From contig CM057156.1 in the NCBI GenBank assembly GCA_029962745.1, positions 26,622,421 through 26,686,420 of the forward strand: DNA of 64,000 nt. Direction: 5' to 3'. Positions within the stretch are counted from its first letter, which is position 1; each line of letters opens with the position of its first letter. The stretch comes from Echinometra lucunter (taxonomy: Eukaryota; Echinodermata; Echinoidea; Camarodonta; Echinometridae). This document shows positions 4,806 through 34,868 of this stretch, piece by piece. The notes under the pieces are model-generated. The model had not been told where the DNA came from. It saw nothing but the letters and a program-made list of their open reading frames with translations, and did not search any database. The position numbers and the translations under genes were made by a program.

Positions 4806-6020
4806 TTATACTTTAGATTGCAGAACACAGGATTTAGCATCCGATGTGGTCCAATAATAAAGAACCAGAACTACTACTGCAGCAATCAGGAGAACACCGA
4901 AAACAGGAATTAGAAAATACATCATGAGGAGCTTACAGCTTTCTCCGCTTTCCCTGCATGTGTTAGGGATTGGCGTTAATGTTTCATTGCCCATCAAGCC
5001 CATTGTAAAAGTGGTAAATTCACTTGGAGCGCTGTTTTCTGAAAGTATTTTCAAGGTAGCCTCTGAATAAAATATAGTTCCGTTCACATCTACCTCACAC
5101 GTCACGATAACACTGTCATCTGTATACTGAACATTGCGTATCTTCAACGTCGATGATGCTGTATCTGATATTCGGGAGAATTGAATGTGGTGGGAGAGCC
5201 TCCAGTTATATTTCACACCACTTTCTCGTCCATTATTCAAAGTACACGCATAGGTCACATCACTTCCCAATGCAACTTTGTTTACAAGTGGTGTTATGCC
5301 GATAGCATTGGTGTACGTAACGCTGTCGGCTACACAGGGTGACGAGTTACTATCGGTGACACAATAATATTGGGATATTGAGCTGATGTTATTGGTCTCC
5401 CTACGGGCTATTAATTTGTTGGCTGAAGTAATGTCAGTGATAACTCGAGTACCATTGTGCTGGATTGAAATGTCATTTATGTTTGCCCCTTCACTGAAGC
5501 AGTCTCGATGATAGTTTCTGCAGACGAAATCAAACATCAGACTTTGTGTCGGAGGAACACGTTTTGCAATGCATGGTGATATTGCTAAATGTTCACGGGC
5601 ATTAATGTTTATGACGAAAGTTACTTCACTTGCCGTATGGTCTGATATTACTTGACATTTATAGGTGAAATTACCTGGTACTTTTGATCTCACGTGGGCT
5701 AGCCCACCGTGGCATGAATCATCATCTCCTACTAAATGATATCCGTATGAAAGGTATTCCCAAGACCCCATTTCACACGTGGCAACAGAAATATACGATG
5801 GGTTATCAGAGCAATCCTCTTGAAAAAGGTACATCCATGCTGTCGTTCCTTTGTTAAATGTGTCAGATGTCGATGGATCAAAACATCTTAAATCAAGCGT
5901 TTCTCCCACATAACCGGTAACATTGACAGGGTTGGTGACATCTACGGTATCTACTGTTCCCAAAGGATGTATGGTGAAGATAGCTAACATACCTACTATC
6001 AGCATCGTGGCAATCTTCAT
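4806..6020 (-). CDS. Ig-superfamily type I membrane receptor, short cytoplasmic tail
   Basis: A single-exon gene of 404 residues. The frame is open further upstream to 6119, but the start is taken at 6020 because it begins the hydrophobic leader (MKIATMLIVGMLAIF) and matches the start of the plus-strand paralogue. After the signal peptide (about 1-22) come three Ig-like domains with paired cysteines, many N-x-S/T sites, a short Thr-rich stalk, and one transmembrane segment near residues 366-388. The tail is only about 16 residues, without tyrosine motifs, and the membrane segment has no charged residue for pairing with a signalling adaptor. The first ~327 residues are about 94% identical to the receptor at 18799-21045; homology stops in the stalk at a shared EFTTFT. 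Inferred role: cell-surface recognition or adhesion, possibly a decoy or anchor version of its long-tailed partner. The ligand cannot be read from sequence. Confidence 0.85.
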   Translation of the reverse strand: MKIATMLIVGMLAIFTIHPLGTVDTVDVTNPVNVTGYVGETLDLRCFDPSTSDTFNKGTTAWMYLFQEDCSDNPSYISVATCEMGSWEYLSYGYHLVGDDDSCHGGLAHVRSKVPGNFTYKCQVISDHTASEVTFVININAREHLAISPCIAKRVPPTQSLMFDFVCRNYHRDCFSEGANINDISIQHNGTRVITDITSANKLIARRETNNISSISQYYCVTDSNSSPCVADSVTYTNAIGITPLVNKVALGSDVTYACTLNNGRESGVKYNWRLSHHIQFSRISDTASSTLKIRNVQYTDDSVIVTCEVDVNGTIFYSEATLKILSENSAPSEFTTFTMGLMGNETLTPIPNTCRESGESCKLLMMYFLIPVFGVLLIAAVVVLVLYYWTTSDAKSCVLQSKV

Positions 6021-6213
6021 AGTTTCACTTGATATGACACCTTCACCATCGAAATGTTTGATAATTGAATGGAGAGTTTGAAAATGTGTAGCATGTGCAG
6101 AGGAGTAGACAACGCACAAGCCGTATCCTTGTAACTGGCAGAGCTGTATACCCTTTCTACGTTGAGAGATAATGATGGAGGCGTAACTTCCAAAGTAAAA
6201 TATTCACGCAAAC
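6021..6213 (-). promoter_or_regulatory. 5' leader/flank of short-tail Ig gene, homologous to the plus copy
   Basis: Read on the minus strand this segment is closely similar to 18611-18798, directly upstream of the long-tail gene, so the duplication included the 5' untranslated region or proximal promoter. Both copies keep A at position -3 of the start codon (AAACTATGAAG). No TATA box could be assigned with confidence. Whether this is promoter or transcribed leader cannot be decided without RNA data. Confidence 0.5.
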
Positions 6214-6355
6214 CGTGTATGTTGAAGATAGCTAACATACCCAATATCAGCATCTTGGCCGTCGTCATAGTTTCACTTGATATGAAACTTTCACCATCGA
6301 AATGTTTGATAATTAATTGATATATAGTGAGTTGAAAATGTGTAGCATATGCTAC
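6214..6355 (-). repeat. Duplicated 5' leader plus signal-peptide segment
   Basis: A partial tandem duplication with a 248-bp period. The stretch from GCATATGCTACACATTTTC through an ATG at 6268 and a second signal-peptide-like sequence (MTTAKMLILGMLAIFNIHG) repeats what is found at about 6100-5960. The upstream ATG opens an 83-codon frame running through the leader; its TGA stop (6019-6017) overlaps the receptor start codon as ATGA. The long-tail gene lacks this extra leader. Confidence 0.7.
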
Positions 6356-8496
6356 GGGTCTCGAATGAAATTAAACTCACGAGATGGCGCAATTAAGCTG
6401 CAGAATTTGCTCTCATTAAACTCATCCTGTATGGCTTACCATACCCATGATAACATTCTCTTTCAGTTTTGAAAGCTCCCAATGGGTGAAACATATCAAA
6501 ATCAAAAGCATAGATCTTCATTATGAATTATTCAGAATTATATGGGATAGGTTCTTCTTTTCGGAACAGATTCGTTTGCAGATCACTGTTCAGGCCTTTC
6601 ATTTCTTCTCTAAAGTGACCTAACATCTTGCCAAAAAGGCTTCGTCAGAGGATCGTTCTTTTCCATTATAAACATACTGGACAATGGAGAATTAAGATCC
6701 CCTCACTCAGTGTCATTATTTTAGGGTACGCATATAAGTTCCCGCTTTCACACCCCCCCCCCCCCCCCCCCCCTCCGGACTGCCAAAATTTCTGGCCCAT
6801 TTTTCGCGGACTTTTTGCAGGCTCAGTTTCCTGCCTTGGAGACCCCCTAAATCAAGAACACTTCTCAACATGCTCAATGTACCTCCTATCCCCCCCCCCC
6901 CCCACACCCAGAGAGAGAGAAAGAGAGAGAGCACCCAGTCTCTACCCACCACCATCGCCACGTGGGATGAAACGTTGCGATGCATCGACTCGGACCAGAG
7001 AGGTGGAAGACATCGGACAGGGGAAATTGAAAGAAAAGCTTGACCAAGTAAGGTCGGGCAATGATCAGGCAATGGACAAAATTACTCAGACTTTCAGCGT
7101 TCCACCTGGTATGACCCTCGTCCGAACCACAGAACGCTATATCACAGCCCAAGGGGAGATGATTGAGACAGTGAAGGAAGAACTTACTAGGGCCAAGTGA
7201 ACTGAGCTTTTGAGCACTTGATTGTGGACTCTAGTTTTGACATGTTGTAACTAAGTGCATGAATTTCTTGATGTTTTATATGTTTTAGTAAGCTGTACGT
7301 AACGTAAGGTAACTGTCATAAGAAACTATGACAAAGTTAAACATTTCTTTGAGTTTCGAAACTGCATGTTGAAATTGGTTTGTGTTTTGAGTTTTTGGTT
7401 ATCTTCAGTTTGGTAGTTGATGATTTGTTAGTTAGCTTGGGGACCAAGCTCGGCAGGAAAGGGGGTCGTGCAACGAGCAGCATATCTGTTGTAATGGCAT
7501 AGAGTAACACAGGCACTAGGTATAACGTGTAAGCCTATAGGGATCGGAACGTACGCGGGCAACGTATCTGACAGGTAGTTGGCAATGAAGGAAAATTTGC
7601 ATAATTTGCATGTTTAATTTATAGGGGGGGGCTATGATGATTCTGTTAGGTTAATTATTTGTTAGAAAAAGTTGTTTGGACAAGGACCAGTGGTTATATT
7701 TGGTAAATTGGGTCATCTTGGACAAAAGTGCTATCTACTAACGAGTACATCAATGATTTCTTAAATTTCTTAGTACAGGGATTTAGTTTGAAATATCAGG
7801 ATTGATCGCAACGGTCTAGCCACCGCAGGATATTTCGCCCCTCAAATTCCCTGAAGGTTCTCACCGAGAATCGATTCTGGGCTACACTCTGTTCACTGTG
7901 TGAGATTGTTGAGTCTTGATGAAAGGTACTGTTCAAACGCTAACATTCTGCTATAATTGCCTTTAATTAAGTAGTTAATTAACTAAGCAAGTTATGAGAT
8001 GGAGAGAGAGTGAACTCTAATTGGGTGAATGATTGTTGGACGGATGACCACTTGTCTGCTGCTGTGACAAGGAGAGTAGGGTGACCGATTGCTTCGACGG
8101 ATGGGTGATTGCTGGTAGGCCTGGTGGAAAAGAGCAAGGGAGCGGTGACGGTTGGTGATGGTCGAGCACCGGCAGCTCCAGCCATCAGCAGCGGTCATAT
8201 ACTTTGACCAGACGGACGGAGAGCTCGGCCAGGCACGGGGCATCCTGACAAGATAGCCGTGTCAGCCGGCAAGGCGAACCGTGCCCGTCACATTGCAATA
8301 GCAGGAATGAAGCTTCAGCTTCTTTGCACTCATATAGGTTCATTATGATGTATGCAGTATCGGATATGACGGTTTTTAAAGGATTTCTTCTGTTATTACT
8401 TCGTTTTGCATTGCATGGCCAATAAAAATCACAGGTGAATATCTGAATATGGAAGGAAGTGTCTGATTTTAAAGACTGCACCGCGCAGGAATGATA
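6356..8496. other. Intergenic sequence between the Ig genes, left part
   Basis: No confident gene. It has C tracts near 6751-6772 and 6890-6903 and a GA microsatellite near 6910-6931. A protein-like stretch of about 80 codons on the plus strand (about 6958-7200, lysine/glutamate-rich, ending ...VKEELTRAK then stop) could be a terminal exon or gene relic. Its upstream frame is mostly homopolymer-coded proline, and I do not recognise the family. Confidence 0.4.
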
Positions 8497-8960
8497 GACC
8501 AGGAGCCTGCAACATATTGACTTACCCCATCGAGCTCAGAAGGTTTGACCCCTGAAATATATTTAATCCATGACTGTGAGTCAGGAAATGGGTGTCAGCT
8601 GGAACCAATAGGGGTGCCCCCCAGCCCCCCCCCCCCGAAAACGCCCCAAATGCGGGAAAACTCAACCCACTGAGCCCATGGATGAAACTTGGTCAAAGTG
8701 GAAGTGCCCAAGGGGCACATTACCAAAATATAAAAGCCGACATCCCAGGTCGTTGGAAAGGGGTAGCTGACCCCCCTCGACCCCCTAATGCGGGAAAATT
8801 TACCCGGCTGAGCCCATGGACCAAAATTTGCCACAAGATAGCAGAATTAGGTGTAAAAGCTGACACCATAACTGGTTGGAAAATACCTGCTGACACCCAT
8901 CAAACTTGCCCCCCCCCCCCACCATCAGATTCCCCCCTTCTCCGGGGCAGAAGTCCTAAG
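8497..8960 (+). repeat. Dispersed tandem-unit repeat, copy 1
   Basis: This segment is the reverse complement of the family seen at 16235-16893. Shared features include GAAGGTTTGACCCC, ATGACTGTGAGTCAGG and units of roughly 140-155 bp carrying GGGTGTCAGCTGG and GCCCATGGACCAAAATTTG. This copy has about two units. Similarity ends abruptly near 8497 on one side and near 16893 on the other, which suggests a defined element boundary. Confidence 0.7.
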
Positions 8961-10000
8961 AACCTGTGCACAAAACATCTCAAAAACATCTCATTCTAGT
9001 TCAATCCTCTCGAGAGCATGCATCCTCAACCCTCCACTTAAAAGTATTTGAAAACAACGAAAAAAAAAAAAAAAAACCACCCCAAAACAAAAAACACAAG
9101 GGTAAGCAGGCAAGGCTTACCATACTAATATTCATAGACAGTATAAGTTCGATTGCAGCATAGAAGCCGTAGTAAACGGGAGCCCTCAATCTTACCCTGT
9201 TTACAAAGTCATGTTTTCACTCATTAAATTTTACGCCAAAGTACATAATGATAATGTTTCTTGACTTCAAAGTCCTTTCTGTTGATGTTTTTACCCACTG
9301 GCGACGGATTCCTTTGCATTGCTTACGGAAACCTGTGTAGGGAGTACGGCTTCTCACACAAACAGGCTTCATGAGTCAAAAGCGATTGAATTTCGCACTC
9401 AGTTAACTTCCAATTTTTAAACTTTCTCCAATTCTTGTGGCATTCGAGCACCGCACAGCTGAACTTCCCTGACAATTTCTCATTGCAAATATTAAAAGAA
9501 ATCTGCATATATTGGTCAAAATAGACAAAAAAAATCAAACGAATGTACATAACGCGCTATTGGCTTGTGTACTATAAAAGCTGGAGCGCCCACCGCAGTA
9601 TGTCAAACTGTGTCGAATAGTCTGCTGCCCTCTTGCGTTGTGAAATTGCTCTATATCGCGACAGCGCGCGCTGTTAATACTGCACTAGCTGTACTGCATA
9701 GTTGCCAGAGTTGGCATAATTATGCTTTTTGGTAATTTTGACCGCTTCAGCATCTGGCATTATGCTTGGCATAATTTGATACAATTTAGCATAATTTTAG
9801 CATGATTTTGGACTTTTTGGTGAAACATTTTTCCCCGACCCTACAAAATGTGAGACAACTCGCCCTTGCTGAACCGAGGGTGCGGTCTCGGGGTGAATGA
9901 GTGGTCTCTCGGGTGAGTTGTCCAAAATTTAAACTTCATAGTCGACGTCATGGGTCGCAGGCTCGCAGCATGGTGCTTTCACCTTTGCGACTTCGTGACC

Positions 10001-11110
10001 CAGGGGCGTCGCTGGAGGGGGGGGGGGTGTGACAACCTCCCGCCATTAAAAATGCTTGTCGGCAAATTCGCGGTCGCTGTCGGCAAAGAGAGAGAGAGAG
10101 AGAGATAGGAAAGGGAAGAGGAAGGAGGGGGAAAAAGAGGAGTAAGGTGCCCTAATACAGTCATAGTCGGCTTATTTGTTTGTGCATTTTGACTACGAAA
10201 TAACACTGGTAACACAAAAGGGCGCATATTTTTCCTCGCTCGCTGTGCTCGCTCTTATTATATTTAGATGCAGGATGTTTTCGGAAAGCAAACACATTTG
10301 GCAAGTGAGATAAACAAATGTATAATTTAGATATCTTGCGGCCCATCCTGTATTTTGATCAAAAATTATCTTCCTCGCTCGTATAATATTTAGATACAGG
10401 ATAGTCTTCGAAAGCAAAAAAAATAGGTAAGAGAGGTGACCAAATATATCACAATAGATATCTTAAAGGCCCATCATGTATTTTGAAGAAGAACTTTCAC
10501 TTCTGTCATGAAAATGAGTATATAATTTTCCTCGCTTGCTACGCTGGTTCGTATAATATTCAGATACAAGATGGATTCGGGAAAGCAAAATAATTCCGCA
10601 AGCGAGGTGACCAAGTGTACCCGTTCAAGTTAGATATCTCATAGTTAATACCATCATGTATTTGAATGAAGAATTATCACTTCTTCCATAAGAAAATAGT
10701 ATACAGATTTTTTCCTTTGCTCGCTGCGCTCGCTCGTATATCACTAAGATTTAGGATGTTCTTTGAAAGCTAATGAATCAGGTGAAAGAGGTGACGAAAT
10801 ATACATTTTAGATATCTTTAAGCCCAATAATGTAGTTTAATGAAGAACTCTCACTTCTACGAAAGAGAGTGTATCGTTTCCCTCCCTCGCTGCGCTCGCT
10901 CATATGAAATTTAGTTACAAAATGTTTTCGGAAAGCTAACACATTCGGCAAGTGAGGTGAACAAATATATAATTTAGAAGGAACATGCCTCGTGGGCTTT
11001 ATACGGTTGAATTTTTCGACGTTGGTCGTCGGCAATCGGAGGAATTGTTTGTCGGCAATCTGGCCTCTACACCCCCTCCCCCCATTAAAAAAAGTCTAGC
11101 GACGCCCATG
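10001..11110. mobile_element. hAT-like non-autonomous element with internal tandem repeats
   Basis: It begins CAGGGGCGTCGCTGG and ends CTAGCGACGCCCATG, an imperfect terminal inverted repeat of the same family as the element at 30918-31568. Inside are five degenerate units spaced about 140-185 bp, each with TCGCTCGCTGCGCTCGCTCG followed by TATAATATTTAGATACAGGATG-like sequence. No transposase frame is present. The flanking 8-mers do not match, so the insertion is old or rearranged. Confidence 0.65.
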
Positions 11111-14100
11111 GGTATTCCCTCCTGTTAATGTGTGAATTGCAGATTCTAGCTCATATGTCAGTCATTCCCGTGTAAAATGTTTATGCAGTTGGCAAGTACT
11201 CCTGTTTTTATGAAGTAAGACTGTTATCTATTTTCTGAATGTTGCTAGCTATGTAATTGTTATACGTTGTAGATGCATTGTTATGCTTGTATATAGATTT
11301 TATATTAGGTCATGAGTTTAAAGGTCAGAAGTCTGAGGGAATTTCATTTTGTGCATGCATACATTATCTTAACTCTTATTTTTGTGACCTTAAGTTAATA
11401 TAGATTATGTCAAGATACTTATGTTGACTCAGGGTCTCTGTGAACATGCCTCACAAATAAGCTGCAGATGCCAATGAATGTATACCAGACATAAATATAT
11501 GGAAATATGTGTCATTTTGTGTTGTTCTTTCTCTTGTTTTAATTCAGTTGTGCATGACAGGTGTTGATTTATGATGTCATTAATCAAAGTGAGGAAACAA
11601 ATGGGTTGAGAAAAAAAATATACCTAATTTTATTTCATTTTAAGCAGTCACAAAATTTGAGACAGAAATATTCAATAATTTGGTTAATTGTCTTTTTCTT
11701 ACAGGAAAAAAAATGACATCGCCTGAATTTCACAGTGTACATGCTTACGACATGAAAGTTTCCACCTCAGTTACTATGCCAACCAACTATTCCCAGGATC
11801 TAAAAATCTTATTTTGATGGTATAGAACTATTCCCCTTTTCAGCAAGCATGCCTATTTTGTTTAATAAACATTAGATTAGGGACAGGCAGGGTGAGAGTG
11901 GCGATGCAAGGCTGGATGCATTTTTTTTTTTTTTTTTTGGGGGGGGGGGGGGCTCAGGTCAATATTTTGTTTGTTTTTTGTTTAAAGTTATCACATTCTA
12001 GACAGGATACATACAGGTTTTTATATCCCCACCCCTTTTTTCAGGCTTATCCTACCTTGCAAATCATTGCACGCAGTTTTGCATTATTTTATAGTTTTTA
12101 TAATTTCATTTATTTATTTGATTTGATTTAATTTGATTTTTATTTTTTTAGTCATCTTTAACTGCGGAAATTTTGAGGAACTTTTTTTTAGTCATCTCAC
12201 CCATTTGGGCATAAAAATAGCATAATTTAGTATTTTTTGCTGCTCCATGTTGTTATTTCATTTGGCATAATTTAAACATGATTTTGCGGTCCTCCCTAGC
12301 ACACTGCTGCACTGTATATATAGGCACTGGATCTATGCTGCTGCACTCTACCGTGTGATTTTGATATCAAGTCCAGGCTTGACTGAATCCAGGCAGAACA
12401 AGGCAAGAATGAAGAGGTAATACATTATGATTATTAATTGAAGTGTCATGCTATGACTCTGAGTGATATTGTTTATGAATTTGATGTGATACTGATATGA
12501 TTATGTGAGTATGAGCAGATGAGTGCAGTAGCCAGTGCACCTAACGTTAGGTAGGTGTTGTGAATTCGTGCCCTACAATGCTCGTGCCACTGGCACTGGC
12601 ACTGGCTGCAATGTATTCATGGACATGTGTTGAACTGAAAAGAAGTAACGTTAGCTAGATCTGCTAGTAGTAGTGAGGTGAACGCGCGATCAGTCAGTGA
12701 TTCGCACGCTTCGTGTGCTCACTACCGCCCCCCCCCCCCCCCCCCCCCAGTAAACTGAAATCCTAGCTACGCCAAATTGTTGCCCTGGCCTAGACCAGGC
12801 TTCTCACCAGGATTTTTATACAGTAATGGGAACAACGTTCGGCATCGAGGGAAAATTTGCGCATAGCGTATGGTACAGAAAACTGGAACACTTACGTTTG
12901 GCTTTTGTTGGGTACTTTCTGTGCATATAAAAATTGCCATTAATACACTTTCTTGCTTAGATTTACTCATGGTGGCATTTCCCCTTTTAAATAAATGGCA
13001 AAAGTATTTTTTTAGTTTGCACAAGGGCCTAATCTCACTTGATGATAGATGCTATGGTAGTAGTAGACTATAAGTTAGCCCTTTGTTAAACACTCGATGC
13101 ATAAATGTTTTGATTTCAGTTTTTCTTCCAGCTTCCTAAGTTTGCATAAGTTTATTGGTGGTTATGCATAACATAAATATGAAAAGCTAATTGGAATTTT
13201 TAATGTTTTGAAACCTAAATGGGTAAAGATGAAGTATTATGGAAACATTCTTACATTTTAATTTTGTTTCAATACCATTCTAAAAAATAAAGAGGAAAAA
13301 TTGGCACTGGATAAATTTTTGTAAGGATGTATGTTAACAATCCCATTTAGCTAAGTAGTGCATAAGTTTGTGCTTATTTAAACAAGGCTTTGTTAAACAG
13401 GGTCCAAGTAGAAAAAAAATAATGATTTTCTTCCTTTCTACACATGTGAATGGTTTTTGTAAAATATTGTGTTTAACAAGTATACTATCTTTCTTGTTTC
13501 TTCATAGGAGTAGAAGACTTTGAGAATGACGAAACCAGCAATGATGAAAGCTTTGACGATGAGACCACGGATGATGATGATGATGATAAGGAGTATTGGA
13601 AGATGATCAAGCTCCACCCTACCCCACAAGTACAAGATACTGTCATGTCGTTGGTTATCATTTTCCTAGACTGAGCATCCTTCAAAAAAGGAATTACATG
13701 TAGGTAACTTTAAGAAGGTCAAATTTGATATTTCCAAACTGTAACTTTGAAAGCACAATGAGGGGTATGCATCCCACTCACCTCACAAGGTGGGGGGGGG
13801 GATGACATGTACAATCATCCCCCCCCCCAGGTTTTAGGGAAGGATGTTTGCTTACGTTATCATTATAACAACAACAGCAACAACAACAATGATGATAATA
13901 ATAATGATAATAATGGTAATGATAATAATAGTTATTTTCATCATCATCATCATCATCATCATCGTTAATGTGACTGAAATGACGAGTACTATTATAACCA
14001 TATCGATCATTATTCTGATTTATGTAGTTATTTATATTACTTTTGGGTAATTTCGGCGCCGTCACAGTTTTTCTGAAGTGGTTTAATAACAAAATTATAT

Positions 14101-14192
14101 AAAAAAGATAAATAGCGTGATGCCAGTATGCAATAATGTGTGTCAGTTCATATTCTATATACGTTTGTCACGGTGCGTATATCTTCTATTTA
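11111..14192. other. Intergenic sequence between the Ig genes, central part
   Basis: AT-rich sequence with no confident gene. It holds a T/G homopolymer block at about 11921-11952, a C tract at about 12727-12749, and a trinucleotide AAT/GAT/CAT microsatellite at about 13866-13966 that creates low-complexity frames on both strands. A possible short exon is listed separately at 13508-13674. Confidence 0.5.
13508..13674 (+). other. Possible acidic 3'-terminal exon
   Basis: After a good polypyrimidine tract and AG (CTTTCTTGTTTCTTCATAG) an open frame in splice phase 1 runs 54 codons to TGA: VEDFENDETSNDESFDDE, then a poly-Asp run and KEYWKMIKLHP. The composition looks like protein, and it is too short and start-less to show as an ORF. 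No upstream exon in matching phase was found, so it may be a relic or chance. Family not recognised. Confidence 0.2.
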
Positions 14193-15388
14193 CAGAGGCG
14201 GCGCTCCCGGGAGGCAGGGGGCACAGTGCCCCCCCCCCCCTTTTTCAAAGCACCCAAAAGTGCCCCTTTTTACCGAACAAAAATGCCGCCTTTCAAACCT
14301 GTTCAGTGCCTTTCTTTTATCTTAGAAGAGCCCGTTTCCTTTGTTGATCAAGTGCCCTTTCACTTTCTAATAAGTGCCCCTTTTCGTTTCAGATAGATTA
14401 CCCTTAAAATCTACAGAAATGCGCTCTTTTATGACCTTTCCCTTTTAATAGCGCTCTGTTCCCTTCTGAGAAGTGGGCCTTTTACACTTCAAATGAATGT
14501 CCCTTTTAAAACGTGATTATTATCCCCCTTTCACTACCTCTTTTCGTTTTTTCACAGCGCAATTTCTCTTCTGCAAAGTGCCCCTTTTCACCCCTGATAA
14601 GTGCCCATTTGAAATTTGATGCATGCCCTCATTTACTTCTGATAAGTGCCCCTTTTCCTTTCTAGTATGTCCAATTTCTGCATCTGTTCATGTAAGATAA
14701 GGGCAATTAGCGCCCTTTTTGTTTTCTGATAGTGTCCCTTTTCCATTCGGGCAAGTGCTTGTGCTTCCCACAAATGTAATTAGAAGGAACGGTGCCCCTT
14801 AATTGGGGGTATTTTTCTACTTTTTCTTTCTAAAGCTCGCTCGCTACGCTCGCTCGCACTAATGATATCTCACGCAAGGCACTTCACGCAAGGCACTTCT
14901 TGTAGCCATAAAGTCTTATATGTTCTCCTAAGTTCCTGATGGTATTGTGCTCAAAACCCCATTCAATTTGAATATTTTCTCTAATAAAAATGTTCGGTAG
15001 CTATGAGACCTCACTTGCATTTAAACATTATAGCTTGGTCACTATATGGAACACGTATAAAATGAATTTCCAGGAGCCTTTATCATTATAGGCCACTCGA
15101 AATATACTGCAAATACCATGCCCTTCAGCAAAGATACCTAGCATTTTTTGCTCGCTCGCTTCGCTCGCTCACAATTGAGTAAGACAGAGCAGTATACAAT
15201 AATATTGCATAGTAGTTATTATCATGTAAAAGTATGTCGAAAATGCACTTTAAAAGTGTTAAATAGAATGTAGGGGTATATATTCCTTCTCGTGTTCGGC
15301 TTTTGTAAGTGCCCCCCTTTTCCCCCAAAGTGCCCTTTTTCGCTAGTGCCCCCCCCCCCTCACTTTGAAAGACGCTCCGCCGCCCCTG
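14193..15388. mobile_element. hAT-like non-autonomous element
   Basis: Ends are CAGAGGCGGCGCTCCC on the left and GACGCTCCGCCGCCCCTG on the right, an imperfect inverted repeat. The flanking 8-mers are TCTATTTA and TCTATTCA (7 of 8 identical), fitting a hAT-type target duplication. The interior is made of degenerate AAGTGCCCCTTTT units and two palindromic TCGCTCGCTNCGCTCGCTCG modules (about 14834 and 15149). No transposase is encoded. Confidence 0.7.
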
Positions 15389-16234
15389 TCTATTCATGTA
15401 TGTGGATTCGGGTGTGAACGGCAAATCATCCCGCAGGTTTAAGAACCTGTCTACGCCACTGCTTAATAATGATTTGCGTTTGTCATGTATTGTGAAAGTA
15501 ATCAACCTTACTTTAGGCGTAACATCACAAAGCTCATATTACATTTGGATATGGTTATAAATCACAATTGAATGTACAGGCATTCTATGTTTTGATGTGA
15601 ATATGAATCAAGGATGGTTGTATTCTTTGTGCGTGCAATGTCATGTTTGATGTTTGTGTATGGTACACGTGAAGTGGAAACTCAGGAGATCTAATACTAT
15701 AGCATGCTGCTAGAACAAGATTTCTTCAAAATTACATTCTATTGTTTTATGATTATTTTAAAACTGATGCATGCTCAAAAGATTATTTGATGGCTACAAA
15801 AACCTCAATACACTGTGTGTGCTGAGTTTCCACTGAAGATGTCAATAATGTTTATTCTGTATGAGTTTGTGTGTTTGAGCGTGGGATGCCTGTCAGTTGA
15901 TGTTGCTTGGTGTTATTCTAAAGCATTTGCATGAAGTGGATGAGTTATTTATATTTTTCCAACACAATTTCAAACACACACAGTTTAATGCTTACAATGT
16001 AGTAAATTTGAAGTTTTGTATAAACACACACACACACCCTCACCCACACACACGTAACGTTACCTTTTGTAACATTATCTGCAGGCCATTGCGGGCTCGT
16101 TGGGAGTTGTTGGGATAAACAACAGGCCTAAAAGTAAGGGAGGGTTCCATTTTGTTCCTTTTTGGGGGGGGGGGCAGGGAGAGTGGTTCCAACCAGTTTT
16201 ATATTTTGTAATTTACAGGTTAAAGATCGTTAAA

Positions 16235-16893
16235 AATGATGGTCCATGGGCTGAATGAGATAAAGTATAGTCCTCTTGTAGGGGGGGGGGTTGTACCCAA
16301 AAGGTTTGAGGGGTGTCAGTTGGTAATTCCCAACCATCTATGGTGTCAGCTTTTGTAATTTTGTAATGTACACCAATACTGCAGTCTTGTGGCAAATTTT
16401 GGTCCACGGGCTCAGTGGGGTAAATTTTCCCGCAAAAGGGGGGGGGGCACTTTTTTCATGTTTGGGGGTGTCAGCTGGTATTTTCCAACCAGTATTGGTG
16501 TCAGCTTTTATATTTTTGTAATATACACCTATACTGCTCTCTTGTGGCAAATTTTGGTCCATGGGCTCACTGGGGTAAATTTTCCCGCCGGAGGGGCGGA
16601 GGCACCTTTTTATGTTTGGGGGTGTCAGCTGGTATTTTCCAACCAACTATGGTGTCAGCTTTTTTATTTTTGTAATGAACACCCATACTGCTATCTTGTG
16701 GCAAATTTTGGTCCATGGGCTAAGCCGGGTAAATTTTCCCGCATTTGGGGCGTTTTCGAGGGGGCCTGGGGGTCGCCCCCGCCCTATTGATACCAGCTGA
16801 CACCCATTTCCTGACTCACAGTCATGGACTAAATATATTTCGGGGGTCAAACCTTCTGGGCTCGATGGGGTAAGTCAACATGTCGCAGGCTCC
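16235..16893 (-). repeat. Dispersed tandem-unit repeat, copy 2 (inverted relative to copy 1)
   Basis: It has about four units of 150-158 bp, each with TGGCAAATTTTGGTCCA (starts near 16390, 16546 and 16698, with a decayed one near 16235) and GGTGTCAGCTGGTATTTTCC. The terminal part matches 8497-8640 in reverse complement at high identity. Located inside the head-to-head Ig interval. Confidence 0.75.
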
Positions 16894-16919
16894 CAGACTA
16901 TGAGTGTTGGGGAGAAGAA

Positions 16920-17345
16920 ATGGTTACAGGTCGTTATTTCGCAGGTTCGAATACTCCGAAGGGTCGTTATTACGAAGATTCGTAAGATTCCTGCTGTTGT
17001 TATTCCATAGGTTCTTTATTCCTACTGTCCATTATTCCGAAGGTTCGATTCTCCGAAAATGAAATAGGGTTCGTTAAGCTGAAAATGAAATAAGATTGGT
17101 TAATCCGAAAATGAAATAAGGTTCATTAACGAACCCTGTTTCTTTTTAGGAATAATCAGTCTTTGGTATATCTTATATCCGGAAAAAAACGAACCTTCGG
17201 AATAACGAGCCGTCGGAATTATCATGATTATAAAACTTCGGAAGAACGAGCCTTCGGATTAATGCAGCAAATGTTCGGAGAAACAAACCCTATTTCATTA
17301 TCGGATAAATGAAATTCGCGGATCGCGAACCTTTGGAATAAGCGT
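16920..17345. repeat. Palindromic minisatellite-like array (TTCGGAATAACGAACC words)
   Basis: Repeated short words in both orientations: ATTATTCCGAAGGTTCG, TCCGAAAATGAAATAAGGTTC and their complements (GAACCTTCGGAATAACGAGC). The whole array can fold back on itself. It has no coding capacity. Confidence 0.7.
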
Positions 17346-18174
17346 CGCATCCGAAGAAGTTACTGTCATGAAAGCACAAAATGGAAATTTTCAGAAATTC
17401 CAGTGTTACTGAAGTAGGAAAATATACCGATTTTACAAAATGAGCTTCACTGCTGGCAGCATAGTTCCACAACACGCTACATGGTCATCTCTATGAACTG
17501 ACCTACCACAGCTCAGCATGACAGACACGAAAGACAATCACTTTCTCACAAAATGGGTGTTTTCCTGCCTTGTAACCACATTGTTGTGTTCAGGGAAGAG
17601 AAAATTTTTCCGGGGGGCGGCAAGACGCGTAAAAATTCTCGAAGAAGCTCAAAAGCGAAGCGACCGAGCTGGTTATGGGGGCGCGTTTGCATTTTTGAAA
17701 CTGAAAATGAAAGATTTGGTGCACACTTTTCGTGGATTTTGTGAAAATTTTCAGTAAAAAATGCAAGGTTTCAAAATTTCGGGGGAGGGGGGGGGGGGCA
17801 ACTGCCCCCCGGCCCCCCCCCCCCCCACCGCTGCGTATGGCCGTGGTTGTGTCAAGAGCAGAACGACAAGATTTTAGGTCCAACTCATTAAATCTAGTGA
17901 AAATTGATTAAGCATAAACATGATATGGTAGTAATAAACACTAAAAGATAATGATACTAACAGCTATATCTAAGAGAGTGATCTAGCTATTAAACCCATC
18001 CGGAAGTACACGACAAAATTACATTTTCAAGGCAAAGATATTGTATTATTTTTAAATAAGTTAGTTTTTAGACCATGGCCAGAGTAAAAATTCGAGAAAT
18101 TTATGTTCCTTTCTTCCCTAGCTAATGGATATTTCTACCTTCTTCTCATTACCACCGCGCCATACGCCCCCTCC

Positions 18175-18207
<33 letters not shown>

Positions 18208-18610
18208 GCTCTCCCTCTCTCTCTCTCTCTTTCTTACTCTCTCTCTCTCTCTCTTCCACCATCACTTAATCACTCTTTCTTCTCTCCCCCCCCCCGTATC
18301 TCCCCTTTTCTCTCCTTTTGTTTACGCCATGTTTTTCCTCCATTTCAAAATCAGGTTAATCGGTTGGTAGGATCAGTAAATATTTTACAACACTTATCGC
18401 CCTTTGCCTCAAGTTTCACTACAGTTGCGAGGAGGAAGAGAGAATAATCATTCATCCTGACAGGCTTTCGAGAGACACAACAGGAGTAATATGACTATCT
18501 ATCGTTTAACACCATTTATATTGCGCTATATACCTTCCAAACACTCACGGATTAATCCTGATTTGTCAATTACAGTCAGAAGATGACCGGCCGTTATAAG
18601 AGACTGTTTG
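17346..18610. other. Flank of long-tail Ig gene with TE fragment and CT microsatellite
   Basis: About 17585-17840 holds a G/C-tract transposon fragment: CAAAATTTCGGGG followed by GGCAACTGCCCCCC resembles the right end of the hAT-like element at 31821-32455. About 18173-18290 is a long impure CT microsatellite that creates poly-Ser/Leu frames. No gene is seen. Confidence 0.5.
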
Positions 18611-18798
18611 CATGAATATTTTACATTGGAAGTTAAGCCTCCATCATTATCTCGCAACGTAGAAAGGGTATACAGCTCTGCCAGTTACAAGGATACGGCT
18701 TGTGAGTTGGCTACTCCTCTGCACATGCTACACATTTTCAAACTCTCTATTTAATTATCAAACATTTCGATGGTGAAAGTGTCATATCAAGTGAAACT
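18611..18798 (+). promoter_or_regulatory. 5' leader/flank of long-tail Ig gene, homologous to the minus copy
   Basis: Closely similar to the reverse complement of 6021-6213. It includes GAAAGGGTATACAGCTCTGC and TCATATCAAGTGAAACT just before the start codon. Homology begins near 18611; upstream sequence differs from the minus copy, where a second leader is inserted. It marks the 5' limit of the duplicated unit. Confidence 0.55.
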
Positions 18799-21045
18799 AT
18801 GAAGATTGCCACGATGCTGATATTAGGTATGTTAGCTATCTTCACCATACATCCTTTGGGAACAGTAGATACCGTAGATGTCACCAACCCTGTCAATGTT
18901 ACCGGTTATGTGGGAGAAACGCTTGATTTAAGATGTTTTGATCCATCGACATCTGACATATTTAACAAAGGAACGACAACATGGATGTACCTTTTTCAAG
19001 AGGATTGCTCTGATAACCCATCGTATATTACTGTTGCCACGTGTGAAATGGAGTCTTGGGAATACCTTTCATACGGACATCATTTAGTAGGAGATGATTC
19101 ATGCCACTGTGGGCTAGCGCACGTGAGATCAAAAGAACCAGGTAATTTCACCTATAAATGTCAAGTAATATCAGACCATACGGCAAGTGAAGTAACTTTC
19201 GTCATAAGCATTAAAGCCCGTGAACATTTAGCAATATCACCATGCATTGCAAAACGTGTTCCTCCGACACAAAGTCTGATGTTTGATTTCGTCTGCAGAA
19301 ACTATCAACGAGACTGCTTCAGTGAAGGGGCAAACATAAATGACATTTCCATCCAGCTCAATGGTACTCGAATTATCACTGACATTACTTCAGCCAACAA
19401 GTTAATAGCCCGTAGGGAGACCAATAACATCAGCTCAATATCCCAATATTATTGTATCATCGATAGTAACTCGTCACCCTGTGTATACGACAGCGTTACG
19501 TACACCAATCCTATCGGCATAACACCACTTGTAAACAAAGTTGCATTGGGAAGTGATGTGACCTATGCGTGTACTTTGAATAATGGACGAGAAAGTGGTG
19601 TGAAATATAACTGGAGGCTTTCCCGTCACATTCAGTTCTCCCGAATATCAGATACTGCATCATCGACGTTGAAGATACGCAATGTTCAGTATGCAGATGA
19701 CAGTGTTATCGTGACGTGTGAGGTAGATGTGAACGGAACTATATTTCATTCAGAGGCTACCTTGAAAATACTTTCAGAAGAAGTGTCTACTGATTCAGCT
19801 GTATTAACTGAATTTACCACTTTTACCAGTGACCCAATGACGACGTTGCTTCCTTTAGATGAAACATCAATTATTCTTATTATTGTATGTTCTTCGCTTT
19901 TTATATGTGCACTTCTTATCACCGTGATCATCAAATTTAATTCAAAAATGCAGCGGCGCCGTAAACGGGCCTCTAATGAAAGTCCTAGCGTACATACGGC
20001 CATTGGGTTGACACCACCAGATGAATCAAATGCGATGCCATTGCGTTATTCAACAAAACTGTCACCGACCCCGAGAAAGCCCTCTGTTGTGTCACTACCG
20101 CTTCCTCAGACTCCATCACCCACATCAAACTCTGTGATATCTCCAGTAGAGATGCATTTAGAACTGGACAAGCCTCCACAAAACCGTGTAGCCGTTACAG
20201 AAGCCATGTCTTTGTTGTCAGGTCTTTGTCAGTCACCGCCTTTATCGCCCCTCCTAACTTCTGCACCTCATTCTTCCCAAATCTATAATGTACCGTCACG
20301 AGAAAATTTGCCACAGTGTGCAACAAAACAGGCAGTATCCCTATCATCCAAGGAAGCTCCTCAACACTCTTCCATTGGGTCCCCTCTCATCTCAAGGACA
20401 AGAAAGACTTCTGTAACCGACCAGCCTCTGCCCCTTATTCCAAAGTCCCCTCTACGAGACGATGAAGAAGAACCGAGGAAGGGAATTGTCAACAAATCAG
20501 CTATGTTAAAGGAGTTACCAAGAGCAGTCATCAAACCAACAATCCACGAATATTCTTCTATTGGGGACAAACAACAGGGTTATGATGACTACTCTAGGGA
20601 AAATGCCTTTGGACTTAATAGTCCTGCTGATATCCTCGCAACCCACAATGATCGCCATGACAACACCGGGTTCGACTATAAACAGGAGCACATGCAGAAA
20701 CTTTTTACCGATAGTGAAACTGAGGGCCAAGATCGTCGCAATAGTCCTACCCAAGACTCCAATATGAATACAAATTTTTATACACTACCAGATGAGGATA
20801 CAGAAGATAACATTGCTGGTACAACGGGAAAATCAATCTATTATACAATCGACCAAAATAGCGGCACACTGTTTTCCTCGATGGGGCAATATGACGGCCA
20901 TACTCCTGCGATCGGCAACAGTATCTGTTCTAGTCATCATATTTACGAACTGCCAGAGGGCGAAGGAGTAACGGAGGAGAATAAGCATTCTCAGCCAGTC
21001 GAGTCACCGTTCTATTTCACACTTGAGTCTGAAAAGAAAAAATGA
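18799..21045 (+). CDS. Ig-superfamily type I membrane receptor, long signalling tail
   Basis: A single-exon gene of 748 residues. Signal peptide is about 1-22. Ig-like domain 1 has C46, W62 and C121; domain 2 has C166 and C219; domain 3 has C258 and C307; N-x-S/T sites are frequent. A stalk leads to a transmembrane segment at about 358-378, followed by a basic stop-transfer stretch (QRRRKR) and a cytoplasmic tail of about 370 residues. The tail has three YxxP motifs (Y496 in YNVP, Y661 in YTLP, Y716 in YELP), an ITIM-like SIYYTI (Y681), YSSI (Y585), YFTL (Y739), and proline-rich stretches (PTPRKP 423-428, PPLSPL 480-485, PLPLIP 543-548). YxxP sites in other proteins bind SH2 adaptors such as Crk/Nck, and PxxP binds SH3 domains. 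A tyrosine-kinase-linked surface receptor is therefore inferred; ligand unknown. The ectodomain is nearly identical to the short-tail gene at 4806-6020. Confidence 0.9.
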   Translation: MKIATMLILGMLAIFTIHPLGTVDTVDVTNPVNVTGYVGETLDLRCFDPSTSDIFNKGTTTWMYLFQEDCSDNPSYITVATCEMESWEYLSYGHHLVGDDSCHCGLAHVRSKEPGNFTYKCQVISDHTASEVTFVISIKAREHLAISPCIAKRVPPTQSLMFDFVCRNYQRDCFSEGANINDISIQLNGTRIITDITSANKLIARRETNNISSISQYYCIIDSNSSPCVYDSVTYTNPIGITPLVNKVALGSDVTYACTLNNGRESGVKYNWRLSRHIQFSRISDTASSTLKIRNVQYADDSVIVTCEVDVNGTIFHSEATLKILSEEVSTDSAVLTEFTTFTSDPMTTLLPLDETSIILIIVCSSLFICALLITVIIKFNSKMQRRRKRASNESPSVHTAIGLTPPDESNAMPLRYSTKLSPTPRKPSVVSLPLPQTPSPTSNSVISPVEMHLELDKPPQNRVAVTEAMSLLSGLCQSPPLSPLLTSAPHSSQIYNVPSRENLPQCATKQAVSLSSKEAPQHSSIGSPLISRTRKTSVTDQPLPLIPKSPLRDDEEEPRKGIVNKSAMLKELPRAVIKPTIHEYSSIGDKQQGYDDYSRENAFGLNSPADILATHNDRHDNTGFDYKQEHMQKLFTDSETEGQDRRNSPTQDSNMNTNFYTLPDEDTEDNIAGTTGKSIYYTIDQNSGTLFSSMGQYDGHTPAIGNSICSSHHIYELPEGEGVTEENKHSQPVESPFYFTLESEKKK

Positions 21046-27718: not shown

Positions 27719-28494
27719 TACAGGTTGTATTGTTAATTGACAACAGCAGGAACAGGAAAAAAAAAGTCAATTGAAAAACAGGCAGGCAATATTAAAGGAA
27801 AACCTATGGCAGAACACTCAAACGAGAGGGCATAATGAGATTTTTTGTATTTTACACTGTGTTTCATATCATTTTCATCTTGATGGTAGGTGGCAGGCCT
27901 GCCAAAAATTTTAATTCTAATTTCGAAATTATAAGTTAAATGGGTTTTATGCACAGCAAGCGGCAATTTGGATGAAACCAACATGACCAAGGGGCAGGGA
28001 CGGATGGACGTGCCCACAACCTCCGGCAGAGAGAAATTTGGAGGAACATTGCAAGGAAAAGAACATTGAAGAAGCCTACGACTTCTTTCTTTTTAAAATA
28101 ATTTTTGTTGTTGTTTTTTCTTGTTGTTTACCTCGTAATTCAGTTATCGATGCAACCCCTCCCCTTATACGTTTGAATACAGATTCGCCCAATATGTTCT
28201 TTAGTCCTTCGTTCGTGGGTGTCATCGTCCGGAACACCCCTGGAATAACGGCGAGGTGTAGTTTTGATACTTTTCATGTGTGTGCATTTCATCGTGAATA
28301 GGGTACGATTATTGGTTGAATGGGTTAATTCAATGGAGCTGAGAAGCTCAAGGGAGTACAGGCCATAAAATGATTCATAACAATAAGTCACAAAACTGTT
28401 TGTGCAGTTATGCTGTGATTTGAGTTTGCGAAGGGACCATCATACATGACATGTTTTGATCATAACAGTTGCATGTCGGTGATTGTAAATCACT

Positions 28495-28993
28495 ATGGCT
28501 CGTCCGTCGGTTTTTGCCGATATTAAACACTTGTACTGCCTTGTCAAAGTGATTTCCAAAATAAAGGATGATTCAGAAAGCGGTGTTACTGTATATCACA
28601 GATTCGTTCAAAATGTCAAGAATTTTCCAGAAAGACAGGGTATAGTTTTCGAAGAGGATTCGTACAGTTACGCAGATATCTATCATGCGTCAAACCAGAT
28701 CGCGGAGTGGATACTACAACAGAATGCCCAGAGGGAGAATGAAGAATCCCCCATCGTCATTCACAGCGATGACGACGACAACGATGACGGTGTCAACGTC
28801 AGTGGGTCGGCGCAAGAAAATGGCGGGACCACTATAGCAGTGTTGATGCAGAATGAGCCATCCTTCGTGTGGCTTTGGTTTGCATTAGTTCGACTTGGCA
28901 TCAGTTCTTGTCTTATTAATTACAATCTAAAGCAAGAAGCATTGATGCACTGTATCAAACTCAGCCAGGTCAAAGCTGTCATCGTTTCATCTG
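28495..28993 (+). CDS. FATP/VLACS-type exon 1B (solitary or alternative first exon)
   Basis: Codes for 166 residues plus one base of the next codon (phase 1), ending in a good donor (TCTG/gtaggt). An in-frame stop lies just upstream of the ATG. The product resembles the N-terminal part of SLC27A proteins: TVYHRFVQNVKNFPERQG, then AVLMQNEPSFVWLWFALVRL and LINYNLKQEALMHC, aligning closely with exon 1A at 34388-34868. Unlike 1A it has no hydrophobic N-terminus, and it carries an acidic insert (DDDDNDDG, about residues 92-99). No matching exon 2 exists before 34388. Either this is an alternative first exon spliced to exon 2 at 37512 in the same phase, or the orphan head of a degraded tandem duplicate. 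Exon identity is well supported; function of the transcript is inference. Confidence 0.75.
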
Positions 28994-29010
28994 GTAGGTT
29001 TGCTTCAAAC

Positions 29011-30390
29011 CAGTGGCGTAACTACAGGGGGGACACGGGGGGGGGGCACGGGGGGAACGTGCCCCCCCCCCCCCATCGACTGGCAAAAAATAAATAAGAA
29101 GAGAAAGAAAGGAAGAAAGAGAAAAGAAAGGGGAAAGGGAAAAGGAAAATGGTATATATCGTAAAGCGCTCACTCGCTTCGCTCGCTAGCATTTAAGTAA
29201 CTTAACCAATGCCGATGCTATTCTCATGAAAGGAATCAGTTTGCACCTTGTGTCTCATGTTATAGGCTGCTATTGTTTCACTCACAGAATGTTAGTAATA
29301 ACCATATCTGGATTCCACTCCAAGAAGTTTACCTAAAAAGGGCCCTTTCAGTAGATGGCCTAGATAAAATAAAACAAAATTCCTATCTGTTCGTTCTCTA
29401 GCTCGCTACTCCCGCTAGTAAAAGCTAAAACACAATGATTTCGGTTACAGCGATTATATTTTCAGAAGCGAGTTAGCAAAGTATCATAATGGTTGGGCAG
29501 CGAGGAGGTTCATAAAGTTACCAAAACTTCTACTGTATTTTGCTGATGAATCTATACATGAGGGAGGGGGGAGGCGTCGCTGACTTTGCTCGCTTGTAAA
29601 AACAGATTGGTTTCGGACGATGAGCAAGGTACCTAAAATGGATTCATGTTCAGCACACAGGGGATCGAAGTGATTATGTTTATATTTCGATGACGAAATA
29701 TCACTTCTACAAATGAAAATAAGTGTATTTTCCTCACTCTCTGCGTTCGCTTGTTGAATTATTGTTTAATGGTCTTTTTTAAGCAAACAAATTGGGTGAG
29801 TGAGGTGACCAAATAAATAATCTAGATGTTTCATATGCTCACAATGTAATTTACTAAAGGGGTTAGTGTGTGCTTCTTCGCTCACTTCTCTTGCTCGTAA
29901 TGGTTAGAGAGATGAAGGTTTCGGACAGAAAACAATAGACCAGGGAGGCGCTAAAATATTGGCAGCGAGGTGACTAGACCAAAAATATATTGGCCTATAG
30001 TGTTCCGATAGTGTATTTTGGTAATAAAATATAAACTCTTTTATTGCAAATAAAGTTGTAATTTTCGGCTCACTCGCTTCGCTCGCTCGCAAATTTTCAA
30101 AACAGGGTGGTATCTTTACCAAAATGCGTCATTTCCCCAAAATTTTAAAACGCTTCGCGTCCCTAAAAACTTTGCTTCAAGATTACTGTCGTGTTTTTTT
30201 TTTCTTTTAACAGCACATACACACGTTGATATCAATATGCATATAGCACATCACTTTATTTGATAGGCGATAAAGCAGCAATGTAGATAAAACTGCCTCG
30301 CCTTGCCCCCCCTCGAAAAAAATTCTGCATAAGGCCATGCTCCGTGCCTCCCCCCCCCCCTCCCATGCGCTGACCCATGGTACACCACTG
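29011..30390. mobile_element. hAT-like element inserted next to exon 1B donor
   Basis: Flanked by perfect 8-bp duplications CTTCAAAC (29003-29010 and 30391-30398). It starts CAGTGGCGTAACTACAGGGG and ends GGTACACCACTG. The interior has G/C tracts at both ends and degenerate CACTCGCTTCGCTCGCTCG palindromic modules (about 29169, 29880 and 30069). No transposase frame. It begins 17 bases inside the intron. Confidence 0.85.
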
Positions 30391-34099: not shown

Positions 34100-34387
34100 G
34101 CCCATCTTGTGTGTGGTGTGAGATAGAAGCGGATACAGCCGTACAGGTATACAGCCTACAGTAGACTCCTCCGGACCACAGGCCCACCGGCGTGGTCTGT
34201 GTAAACTGAACTTGCCGTTTCAGTTACACTGCTACTTCGCCCAACTACTGTGCATGTTATCTCGATATCTGTCTGTATCTAAATTTGTCATGGTTGTGTG
34301 AGTTGTTGCTTCTCGAGTCTACGCTACTACTCGCAGCTCATTGATAGTAGATGAAGAGGATTTGATCATTTATTGCTCAAAGTCAAG
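34100..34387 (+). promoter_or_regulatory. Probable 5' untranslated region/promoter of exon 1A
   Basis: Upstream of the exon 1A ATG, with an in-frame TGA about 30 bases before it. The stretch is less AT-rich than surrounding intergenic DNA. No TATA box stands out; start site unknown. Confidence 0.35.
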
Positions 34388-34868
34388 ATGGGAGACTGGG
34401 AAGTTCTGGGATTTTCAGCACTCGTTGTGAGTCTGATTGTGGCTGGAGTGAAGAGGAACTCGATTGCCAATTTCATCCAGGATTTCAAAGACGTATCAAG
34501 TCTAGCTAAAGCTCTTGTGGGCATTAAAATAGCTGCAAGAAAAAACAGAACAATCATCACTTCTCTGTTGGAAGGAGCATCCCATTATCCAGATCATCCT
34601 TTCTTGTTATACCAGGATGAAAAATTCACGTACAAAGACGCAGAGGCGGAGTCTAACCGTATTGCCCGGTGGGTGAAAATCAACTCAGATTTGACCCAAG
34701 ATGAAACTGTTGCTGTTCTAATGCGGAATGAACCAGTTTTTATATGGGTTTGGCTTGGATTTGCCAAGCTAGGTGTGGGTACCAGTCTCCTCAATCATAA
34801 CTTGAAGGCAGAGAGCTTGATGCATTGCATACGAGTGAGCAATGCAAGGTTCTTAGTCATGTCAAGAG
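34388..34868 (+). CDS. SLC27A: SLC27A (FATP) exon 1A
   Basis: Codes for 160 residues and ends in phase 1 at AGAG/gtaaat. MGDWEVLG is followed by a hydrophobic segment ([13 protein letters not shown]) typical of the FATP N-terminal membrane anchor, then [21 protein letters not shown] and [13 protein letters not shown], the N-terminal part of the AMP-binding domain. The ATG at 34388 is chosen because the frame upstream has no other ATG before an in-frame TGA. The 2.6-kb intron after it contains the inverted-repeat copy at 35487-35815 and MITEs just before exon 2. Confidence 0.9.

Follow-up and report, generated by a model that had tools for sequence, protein, structure and literature searches.

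How do two neighbouring genes come to carry almost the same extracellular head on unrelated tails, and what might such a pair be for? The question is raised by genes A1 and B1, which encode putative immunoglobulin (Ig)-like receptors in the window analysed here, a 64,000-nucleotide stretch of a 743-Mb genome (C6:26622421-26686420; positions without the C6 prefix are those of the window). The two belong to a cluster that holds a second pair of the same kind, and the comparison of both pairs provides the main answer: the ectodomains have been exchanged inside each pair, by gene conversion or an equivalent process, and the tails have been kept apart.

One head on two tails

A1, a short-tail receptor of 404 amino acids, occupies 4806..6020 on the minus strand as a single frame, assigned from its open reading frame (ORF) and a family alignment of seven members; it starts with ATG, and the mechanical ORF extends to 6119, from a TTG. 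B1, a long-tail receptor of 748 amino acids, is likewise a single ORF, at 18799..21045 on the plus strand. The genes stand head-to-head with their start codons 12.8 kb apart, and both frames are open throughout, from the signal peptide to the stop codon, in a stretch that contains no assembly gap. The first-pass annotation had described two intronless genes in divergent orientation, and uninterrupted frames on opposite strands are indeed what we find; a spliced 5' untranslated region may exist in both. The proteins follow a common plan, which comprises a hydrophobic N-terminus, an ectodomain of about 330 residues followed by a stalk, a single membrane core and a cytoplasmic portion. Ectodomain and stalk contain seven N-glycosylation motifs and 14 cysteines in A1, and six motifs and 13 cysteines in B1.

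The shared part consists of two inverted repeats, at 5037..6216 (minus strand) and 18603..19779 (plus strand), which are identical at 1139 of 1180 positions (97%). These homogenised arms begin some 200 nt upstream of the start codon (6216 and 18603), run through the signal peptide and an ectodomain with three Ig-like domains, and stop at the codons for 'KILSE' (5037 and 19779), at the end of the third domain. A chance match is excluded for two 1.2-kb arms of this identity. At the protein level, the ectodomains agree at 307 of 327 aligned positions, with 20 substitutions and a single one-residue indel, in agreement with the roughly 94% over some 327 residues counted initially. A nucleotide alignment across the stalk, which had been proposed as a check, shows how abruptly the likeness ends: from +1050 to +1400 nt, A1 and B1 agree at only 120 of 326 aligned positions (36.8%), about chance level, and stalk, membrane span and tail are unrelated.

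Past the switch, hydropathy gives A1 a membrane span at residues 363-390 (4851..4934, minus strand), whose outer edge is formed by lysine 363; only a 21-residue core was computed, and the span limits were set by us. A cytoplasmic tail of about 14 residues, ending in QSKV, would follow (4809..4850, minus strand; about 14-17 residues by hydropathy). In B1, a predicted membrane core that lacks charged residues (residues 358-378; 19870..19932, plus strand) leads into a predicted cytoplasmic tail of 370 residues with 12 tyrosines (19933..21042, plus strand). The unrelated membrane and cytoplasmic parts, first put at 16 and 370 residues, were thus sized well. The B tail occurs in this genome in B1 and B2, the long-tail gene of the second pair, only (two matches, seven candidates scored). 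The edge lysine of the A-type span is invariant in seven of seven proteins of the family alignment. Between A1 and P0001, a short-tail form and the sole relative in the protein database among the best 8000 candidates scored, 23 of 29 residues of this span (residues 362-390) are identical, compared with 168 of 315 in the three ectodomain domains.

From the domain matches that follow, we place A and B in the immunoglobulin superfamily, and in no named family. The third domain of A1 and B1 gives weak Pfam Ig matches below the cut-offs; that of a cluster relative, C1, exceeds the PF00047 cut-off (26.2 vs 21.8 bits), and seven family members include three with a match to PF00047 and six with one to PF13927 (E<=0.01). 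Domains 1 and 2 have Ig-like Cys/Trp/Tyr-x-Cys spacing on a by-eye reading only. A PDB sequence search gave an antibody fragment (E 0.79), a PDB profile search returned MuSK (E 0.007 and 0.048), and Pfam returned weak generic Ig and cytokine-receptor Ig matches. PDB contains chains of the Siglec, KIR, CEACAM, SIRP and PILR families; at the sensitivity used in Pfam and PDB searches, A and B matched none of these families. A sushi domain found no Pfam match in A and B (E<=0.1) or in their relatives (E<=0.05; E<=0.01), and among 40 pattern matches in prokaryote genomes and 12 in viral contigs none was confirmed as a relative.

Two pairs in one cluster

The loci of this family span C6:26530474-26643465, a 113-kb cluster with the A1/B1 pair at its end. 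A genome DNA search with most of gene A as query placed all 13 matches inside the cluster, and a protein search with B1 placed 22 of 26 there, the other four being weak Ig matches elsewhere on C6; these counts are lower bounds, obtained from the best candidates scored. The 15 family loci comprise two long-tail genes (B1 and B2), six intact short-tail genes (A1, A2, A3, C1, C2 and D1; the start codon of A3 is a little more internal) and seven copies that are broken or partial. A2 (C6:26566482-26567705, minus strand) and B2 (C6:26577132-26579378, plus strand), both located by the genome search, are the short-tail and long-tail partners of a second head-to-head pair. Two tandem units can be aligned over 31 kb in 17 collinear blocks with a mean identity of 88.8%, and each has such an A/B pair at its end. 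Judging from these blocks, the cluster goes back to an old tandem duplication of about 60 kb, which yielded the second pair.

Could two haplotypes, joined in inverted or tandem fashion by the assembly, produce the same picture? Polymorphic genomes yield duplicated haplotypes in assemblies, and the tandem copies here abut directly, at 26584485-26584489. Yet the tails of A and B are alike at chance level only, the pattern is present twice, no gap lies near the genes, and the tandem copies differ by 4-33% depending on the block and by large insertions, more than is expected of alleles. We therefore consider an assembly artefact extremely improbable.

If A and B had been duplicated once, and the whole unit thereafter, A1 should be like A2 and B1 like B2 over their full length. 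The heads contradict this expectation. Ectodomain DNA is identical at 953 of 981 positions between A1 and B1 (97.1%) and at 924 of 978 between A2 and B2 (94.5%), whereas the four comparisons between pairs range from 86.4 to 87.5% (A1-A2, 845/978, 86.4%; B1-B2, 853/975, 87.5%). Past the switch, from +1050 to +1400, the pattern is reversed, with 329 of 352 positions identical between A1 and A2 (93.5%), 309 of 329 between B1 and B2 (93.9%), and about 37% agreement within pairs. The informative sites divide accordingly: 85 of 86 in the ectodomain group the genes by pair, one is crossed and none groups them by tail, whereas all 181 sites from +984 to +1400 join A1 with A2 and B1 with B2. Sites upstream of -300 (132 pair, 15 tail, 9 cross) were left unused because the A1 alignment is poor there.

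Trees agree with this division. In a maximum-likelihood (ML) ectodomain tree of 11 of the 15 loci (four broken; without D1 and three broken copies), A1 groups with B1 and A2 with B2, each with support 100, and the tree of A-type tails with 3' flank, built from seven A- and C-type loci (two broken), joins A1 and A2 at 100. A constraint that joins like tails in the ectodomain tree is rejected (delta lnL 234; approximately unbiased (AU) test, 5e-85; nine of the 15 loci, two broken). Partners diverge at synonymous sites by 0.033 (A1-B1) and 0.084 (A2-B2), and genes of different pairs by 0.156-0.206; A1-B1 and A2-B2 both differ in this from A1-A2 (p 3e-7 and 0.002), and the contrast of A2-B2 with B1-B2 is marginal (p 0.06). 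Site grouping, trees and synonymous divergence together therefore indicate that, once the unit had been duplicated, the partners of each pair exchanged heads independently of the other pair. Gene conversion, initially a guess, is thus substantiated by the second pair, whose heads follow the partner and whose tails follow the type.

The ends of the tracts differ: in A2, but not in A1, about 34 nt of the stalk are of B type, which suggests a transfer from B to A in pair 2. The flanks of B1 and B2 are alike on both sides of the ectodomain (C6:26576282-26580799 vs 26640320-26644791, 85.4%), so that probably the head was replaced inside a B frame, rather than the tail joined to an A gene. These common flanks also disfavour an independent origin of the two chimeras by separate copying of the tail onto A1 and onto A2. 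Head exchange apparently occurs among short-tail genes as well, as A3 groups with A2 and B2 in the ectodomain tree (100) and with A4 and A5 in the tail tree (87).

Conversion may keep the heads matched because the match is important, or simply as a side effect of inverted repeats that lie close together. In the latter case, repeats 9-13 kb apart would convert each other by mechanism alone, and the functions of A and B would be unlinked. The ability of close inverted copies to convert each other is stated for CEACAM genes (PMC5112662), and the tracts here extend beyond the binding domains: they take in some 200 nt of 5' flank, and in pair 2 the flanking DNA is included over about 1.5 kb. Codon comparisons of four intact genes put the ectodomain ratio of nonsynonymous to synonymous divergence (dN/dS) at 0.66-0.86 for genes of different pairs and at 0.59-0.86 for partners; the tests mostly show no significant drop below 1, which would also suit neutral homogenisation. 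Its difficulty is that all four frames of the two pairs are intact in a cluster in which seven of 15 loci are broken, and that in both pairs homogenisation stops within the stalk, short of the membrane span, while like tails group together at every informative site. We judge it rather unlikely. In the outermost domain, where seven genes were compared, nonsynonymous changes exceed synonymous ones (9/1 for A1-B1, 16/4 for A2-B2), an excess that is suggestive only.

Paired receptors and the alternatives

With moderate confidence, we read A and B as a paired-receptor set, whose ligand binding, partner for A and different outputs we infer. The pair shows what characterizes such sets: near-identical ectodomains, different cytoplasmic parts, neighbouring genes and ectodomains that conversion between the partners keeps similar. 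KIR, SIRP and PILR, suggested at first as analogues, are fair comparisons; the primate genes SIGLEC11 and SIGLEC16 are nearer in layout. These stand head-to-head about 9 kb apart, have ectodomains kept alike by repeated gene conversion with relaxed constraint in the converted exons, and comprise one inhibitory and one activating member (PMC5701461). They differ from A and B in being multi-exon genes with measured glycan binding, and Siglec-16 associates with an adaptor that bears an immunoreceptor tyrosine-based activation motif (ITAM), whereas A and B are single frames with no Siglec match and putative signalling. Work on Xenopus CEACAM genes holds that conversion within a chromosome requires the partners to be oppositely oriented (PMC5112662). 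CEACAM genes of Xenopus and mammals resemble both of our pairs in that partners are opposed and the binding part is converted, but in the clearest Xenopus case described there conversion is confined to the N-domain exon, whereas in A and B it covers the whole ectodomain of a single-frame gene. We prefer the paired-receptor reading because of this SIGLEC11/SIGLEC16-like layout and the opposite orientation shared with Xenopus CEACAM.

In such a set, the same three-domain head on A and B would bind one shared ligand. B would signal via its long tyrosine-bearing tail, and A, with a tail too short for signalling alone and a well conserved membrane helix, would most likely work through a membrane partner (adaptor) or by competition with B; the outputs would differ or even oppose each other. 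The conserved helix and its invariant edge lysine would fit a membrane partner. Head-to-head inversion would allow heads to be copied between the partners, so that both keep recognising the same fast-changing ligand as their tails stay different.

A might instead be a decoy or brake that captures the ligand of B, sends no signal itself and in this way sets the threshold of B. None of the seven short-tail proteins (A1-A3, C1, C2, D1 and P0001) has an immunoreceptor tyrosine-based inhibitory motif (ITIM), YxxI/L/V, YxxM, YxxP, YxN or ITAM in its tail, their membrane cores are all without charge, and intact short-tail genes outnumber long-tail genes by six to two. A plain anchor, however, would need neither a helix better conserved than the ectodomain, as seen between A1 and P0001, nor an invariant edge lysine, and we consider the decoy unlikely, though it deserves some weight.

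Several results weigh against the paired-receptor reading. Pfam assigns an Ig domain firmly to the third domain only, and an AlphaFold model from three sequences (pLDDT 34) is too poor for use. The membrane core of A holds no charged residue inside by hydropathy, and the A-type span is identical at only 11 of 29 residues between A1 and D1, so its conservation does not extend to this most distant member. Constraint on the shared head is weak, because of four comparisons only A1-A2 has a dN significantly lower than dS (p 0.044), and the other three do not (A1-B1, p 0.82; B1-B2, p 0.56; A2-B2, p 0.09). The B part after the switch (stalk, span and tail; 414 aligned codons) is open in B1 and B2 with two in-frame length changes, but its constraint is just marginally significant (dN/dS 0.60, Fisher p 0.049), and the DNA of the two B tails is partly near-identical (100-nt bins, 89% at +1100 and 100% at +1200), perhaps owing to conversion. 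Outside this genome, the single A-type relative among the best 8000 candidates is accompanied by no B-type homologue among 4251 scored; this absence means little, because few animal genes are expected in the protein database.

The tyrosine motifs weigh against it as well. SIYYTI (20833..20850, plus strand), the sole strict ITIM-pattern match in B1 and also present in B2, is one match where shuffled sequences yield 0.56 (B1, p 0.44) or 0.54 (B2, p 0.43). Counts of ITIM, YxxI/L/V and YxxP in B1 are not significantly above shuffles (p 0.05-0.44), pooled YxxI/L/V/P sites give p 0.054 (B1) and 0.17 (B2), and neither B tail contains an immunoreceptor tyrosine-based switch motif. The first-pass annotation had the tails act in opposite ways; with a lone ITIM match at chance level and no intramembrane charge in A this does not follow, and 'opposite' would better be worded as 'different'.

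Heads kept alike might also serve self-recognition, if they bound like heads on other cells, with A as the ligand form, B as the receptor form and conversion preserving the match; homophilic recognition requires matched heads. Long and short forms with a common Ig-like ectodomain are known from adhesion molecules of the sponge Geodia cydonium, for which our literature search gave no confirmation. The allorecognition complex of Hydractinia contains Alr membrane proteins that are Ig-like, as are A and B, a resemblance by description alone; we know of no near-identical heads on unrelated tails there. ITIM and ITAM motifs are named for Hydractinia Alr (PMC12065747). The closest non-vertebrate case found is the Botryllus allorecognition locus, where fester-family genes lie beside tailed FcoR genes: fester and uncle fester lack any known signalling domain, and FcoR has ITIM/hemITAM or core tyrosine motifs (PMC12065747). 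It shares with A and B a cluster of adjacent receptors, one without known signalling domains and one long-tailed. The accessible part of that report, however, describes two related families with a proposed heterodimer rather than one shared head, and a sushi domain in FcoR that has no match in A and B, and it does not mention near-identical heads. We regard self-recognition as quite improbable.

How far beyond vertebrates does the paired-receptor reading lead? The observed/expected ratio of CpG amounts to 0.73 for the 200 kb examined and to 0.59 for the window alone. Vertebrate values are much lower, and the CpG content fits what an invertebrate would show, which is the sole basis of the word 'invertebrate' in this analysis. 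The conversion-matched paired receptors that we found in print are from vertebrates (PMC5701461, PMC5112662), where they are often read as a response to pathogens, and in the open-licence literature, covered in part and with subscription papers outside, none was found for an invertebrate. Independent evolution, as initially proposed, is weakly supported: only weak, generic Ig matches, one unnamed short-tail relative and a B tail without match are in its favour. That A and B are independently evolved, true paired receptors of a non-vertebrate, single-frame Ig genes of a birth-and-death cluster in which head-to-head partners have signalling and non-signalling (or adaptor-linked) tails and heads that, matched by conversion twice, track a fast-changing pathogen or self ligand, is a possibility that we entertain tentatively, inclining slightly towards doubt. 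More narrowly, we read the A/B pair as a variant of the paired-receptor layout in genes without known family tie. The same layout and conversion signature in an apparent invertebrate would suggest that this strategy arises repeatedly, also without a vertebrate immune system, and two pairs in one cluster make the idea directly testable.

Surroundings of the pair and the cluster

Directly upstream of A1 lies a partial duplicate of the 5' end of this gene, with 5' flank and signal peptide (6176..6352, minus strand; 121 of 137 positions match), which is counted besides the 15 loci. A 155-nt tandem repeat and its surroundings (16310-16901 and 8494-8848) recur in pieces, inverted, between A1 and B1. 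The sole gap within the 200 kb examined is a 500-base N run at 41873-42372. Farther downstream, two AMP-binding genes in tandem are represented in part (28489-29097 and 34355-34876, plus strand), and the latter matches fatty acid transport protein 2; these look intron-split, unlike A and B, because each stretch spans only part of the domain. Between the tandem units, C6:26543256-26556329 and 26606376-26624663 are mostly 92-96% alike (one block 83%), whereas blocks around A and B reach 83-88%; on these identities, homogenisation between the units is patchy.

Outside the cluster, a further single-frame Ig receptor, E1 (C6:26505610-26507784, plus strand; 724 amino acids), has a V-set domain above the cut-off and a 281-residue tail with six YxxI/L/V/P sites, compared with 1.95 expected from shuffles (p 0.005). 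It has only four weak relatives in the genome among the best candidates scored; considered as parent of the B tail, the E1 tail showed no real similarity. Two tandem single-frame membrane proteins (C6:26514600-26516165 and 26519456-26520844, plus strand) share 80% identity over 382 residues and have different tails, the second with YSNM and YKQV and the first without such a site, and are possibly another same-head, different-tail set. Near the start of C6, three long open frames (797, 809 and 676 amino acids) contain weak matches (C6:106720-107247, 196136-196657 and 210333-210992, plus strand), a hint that another cluster of single-frame Ig receptors lies there.

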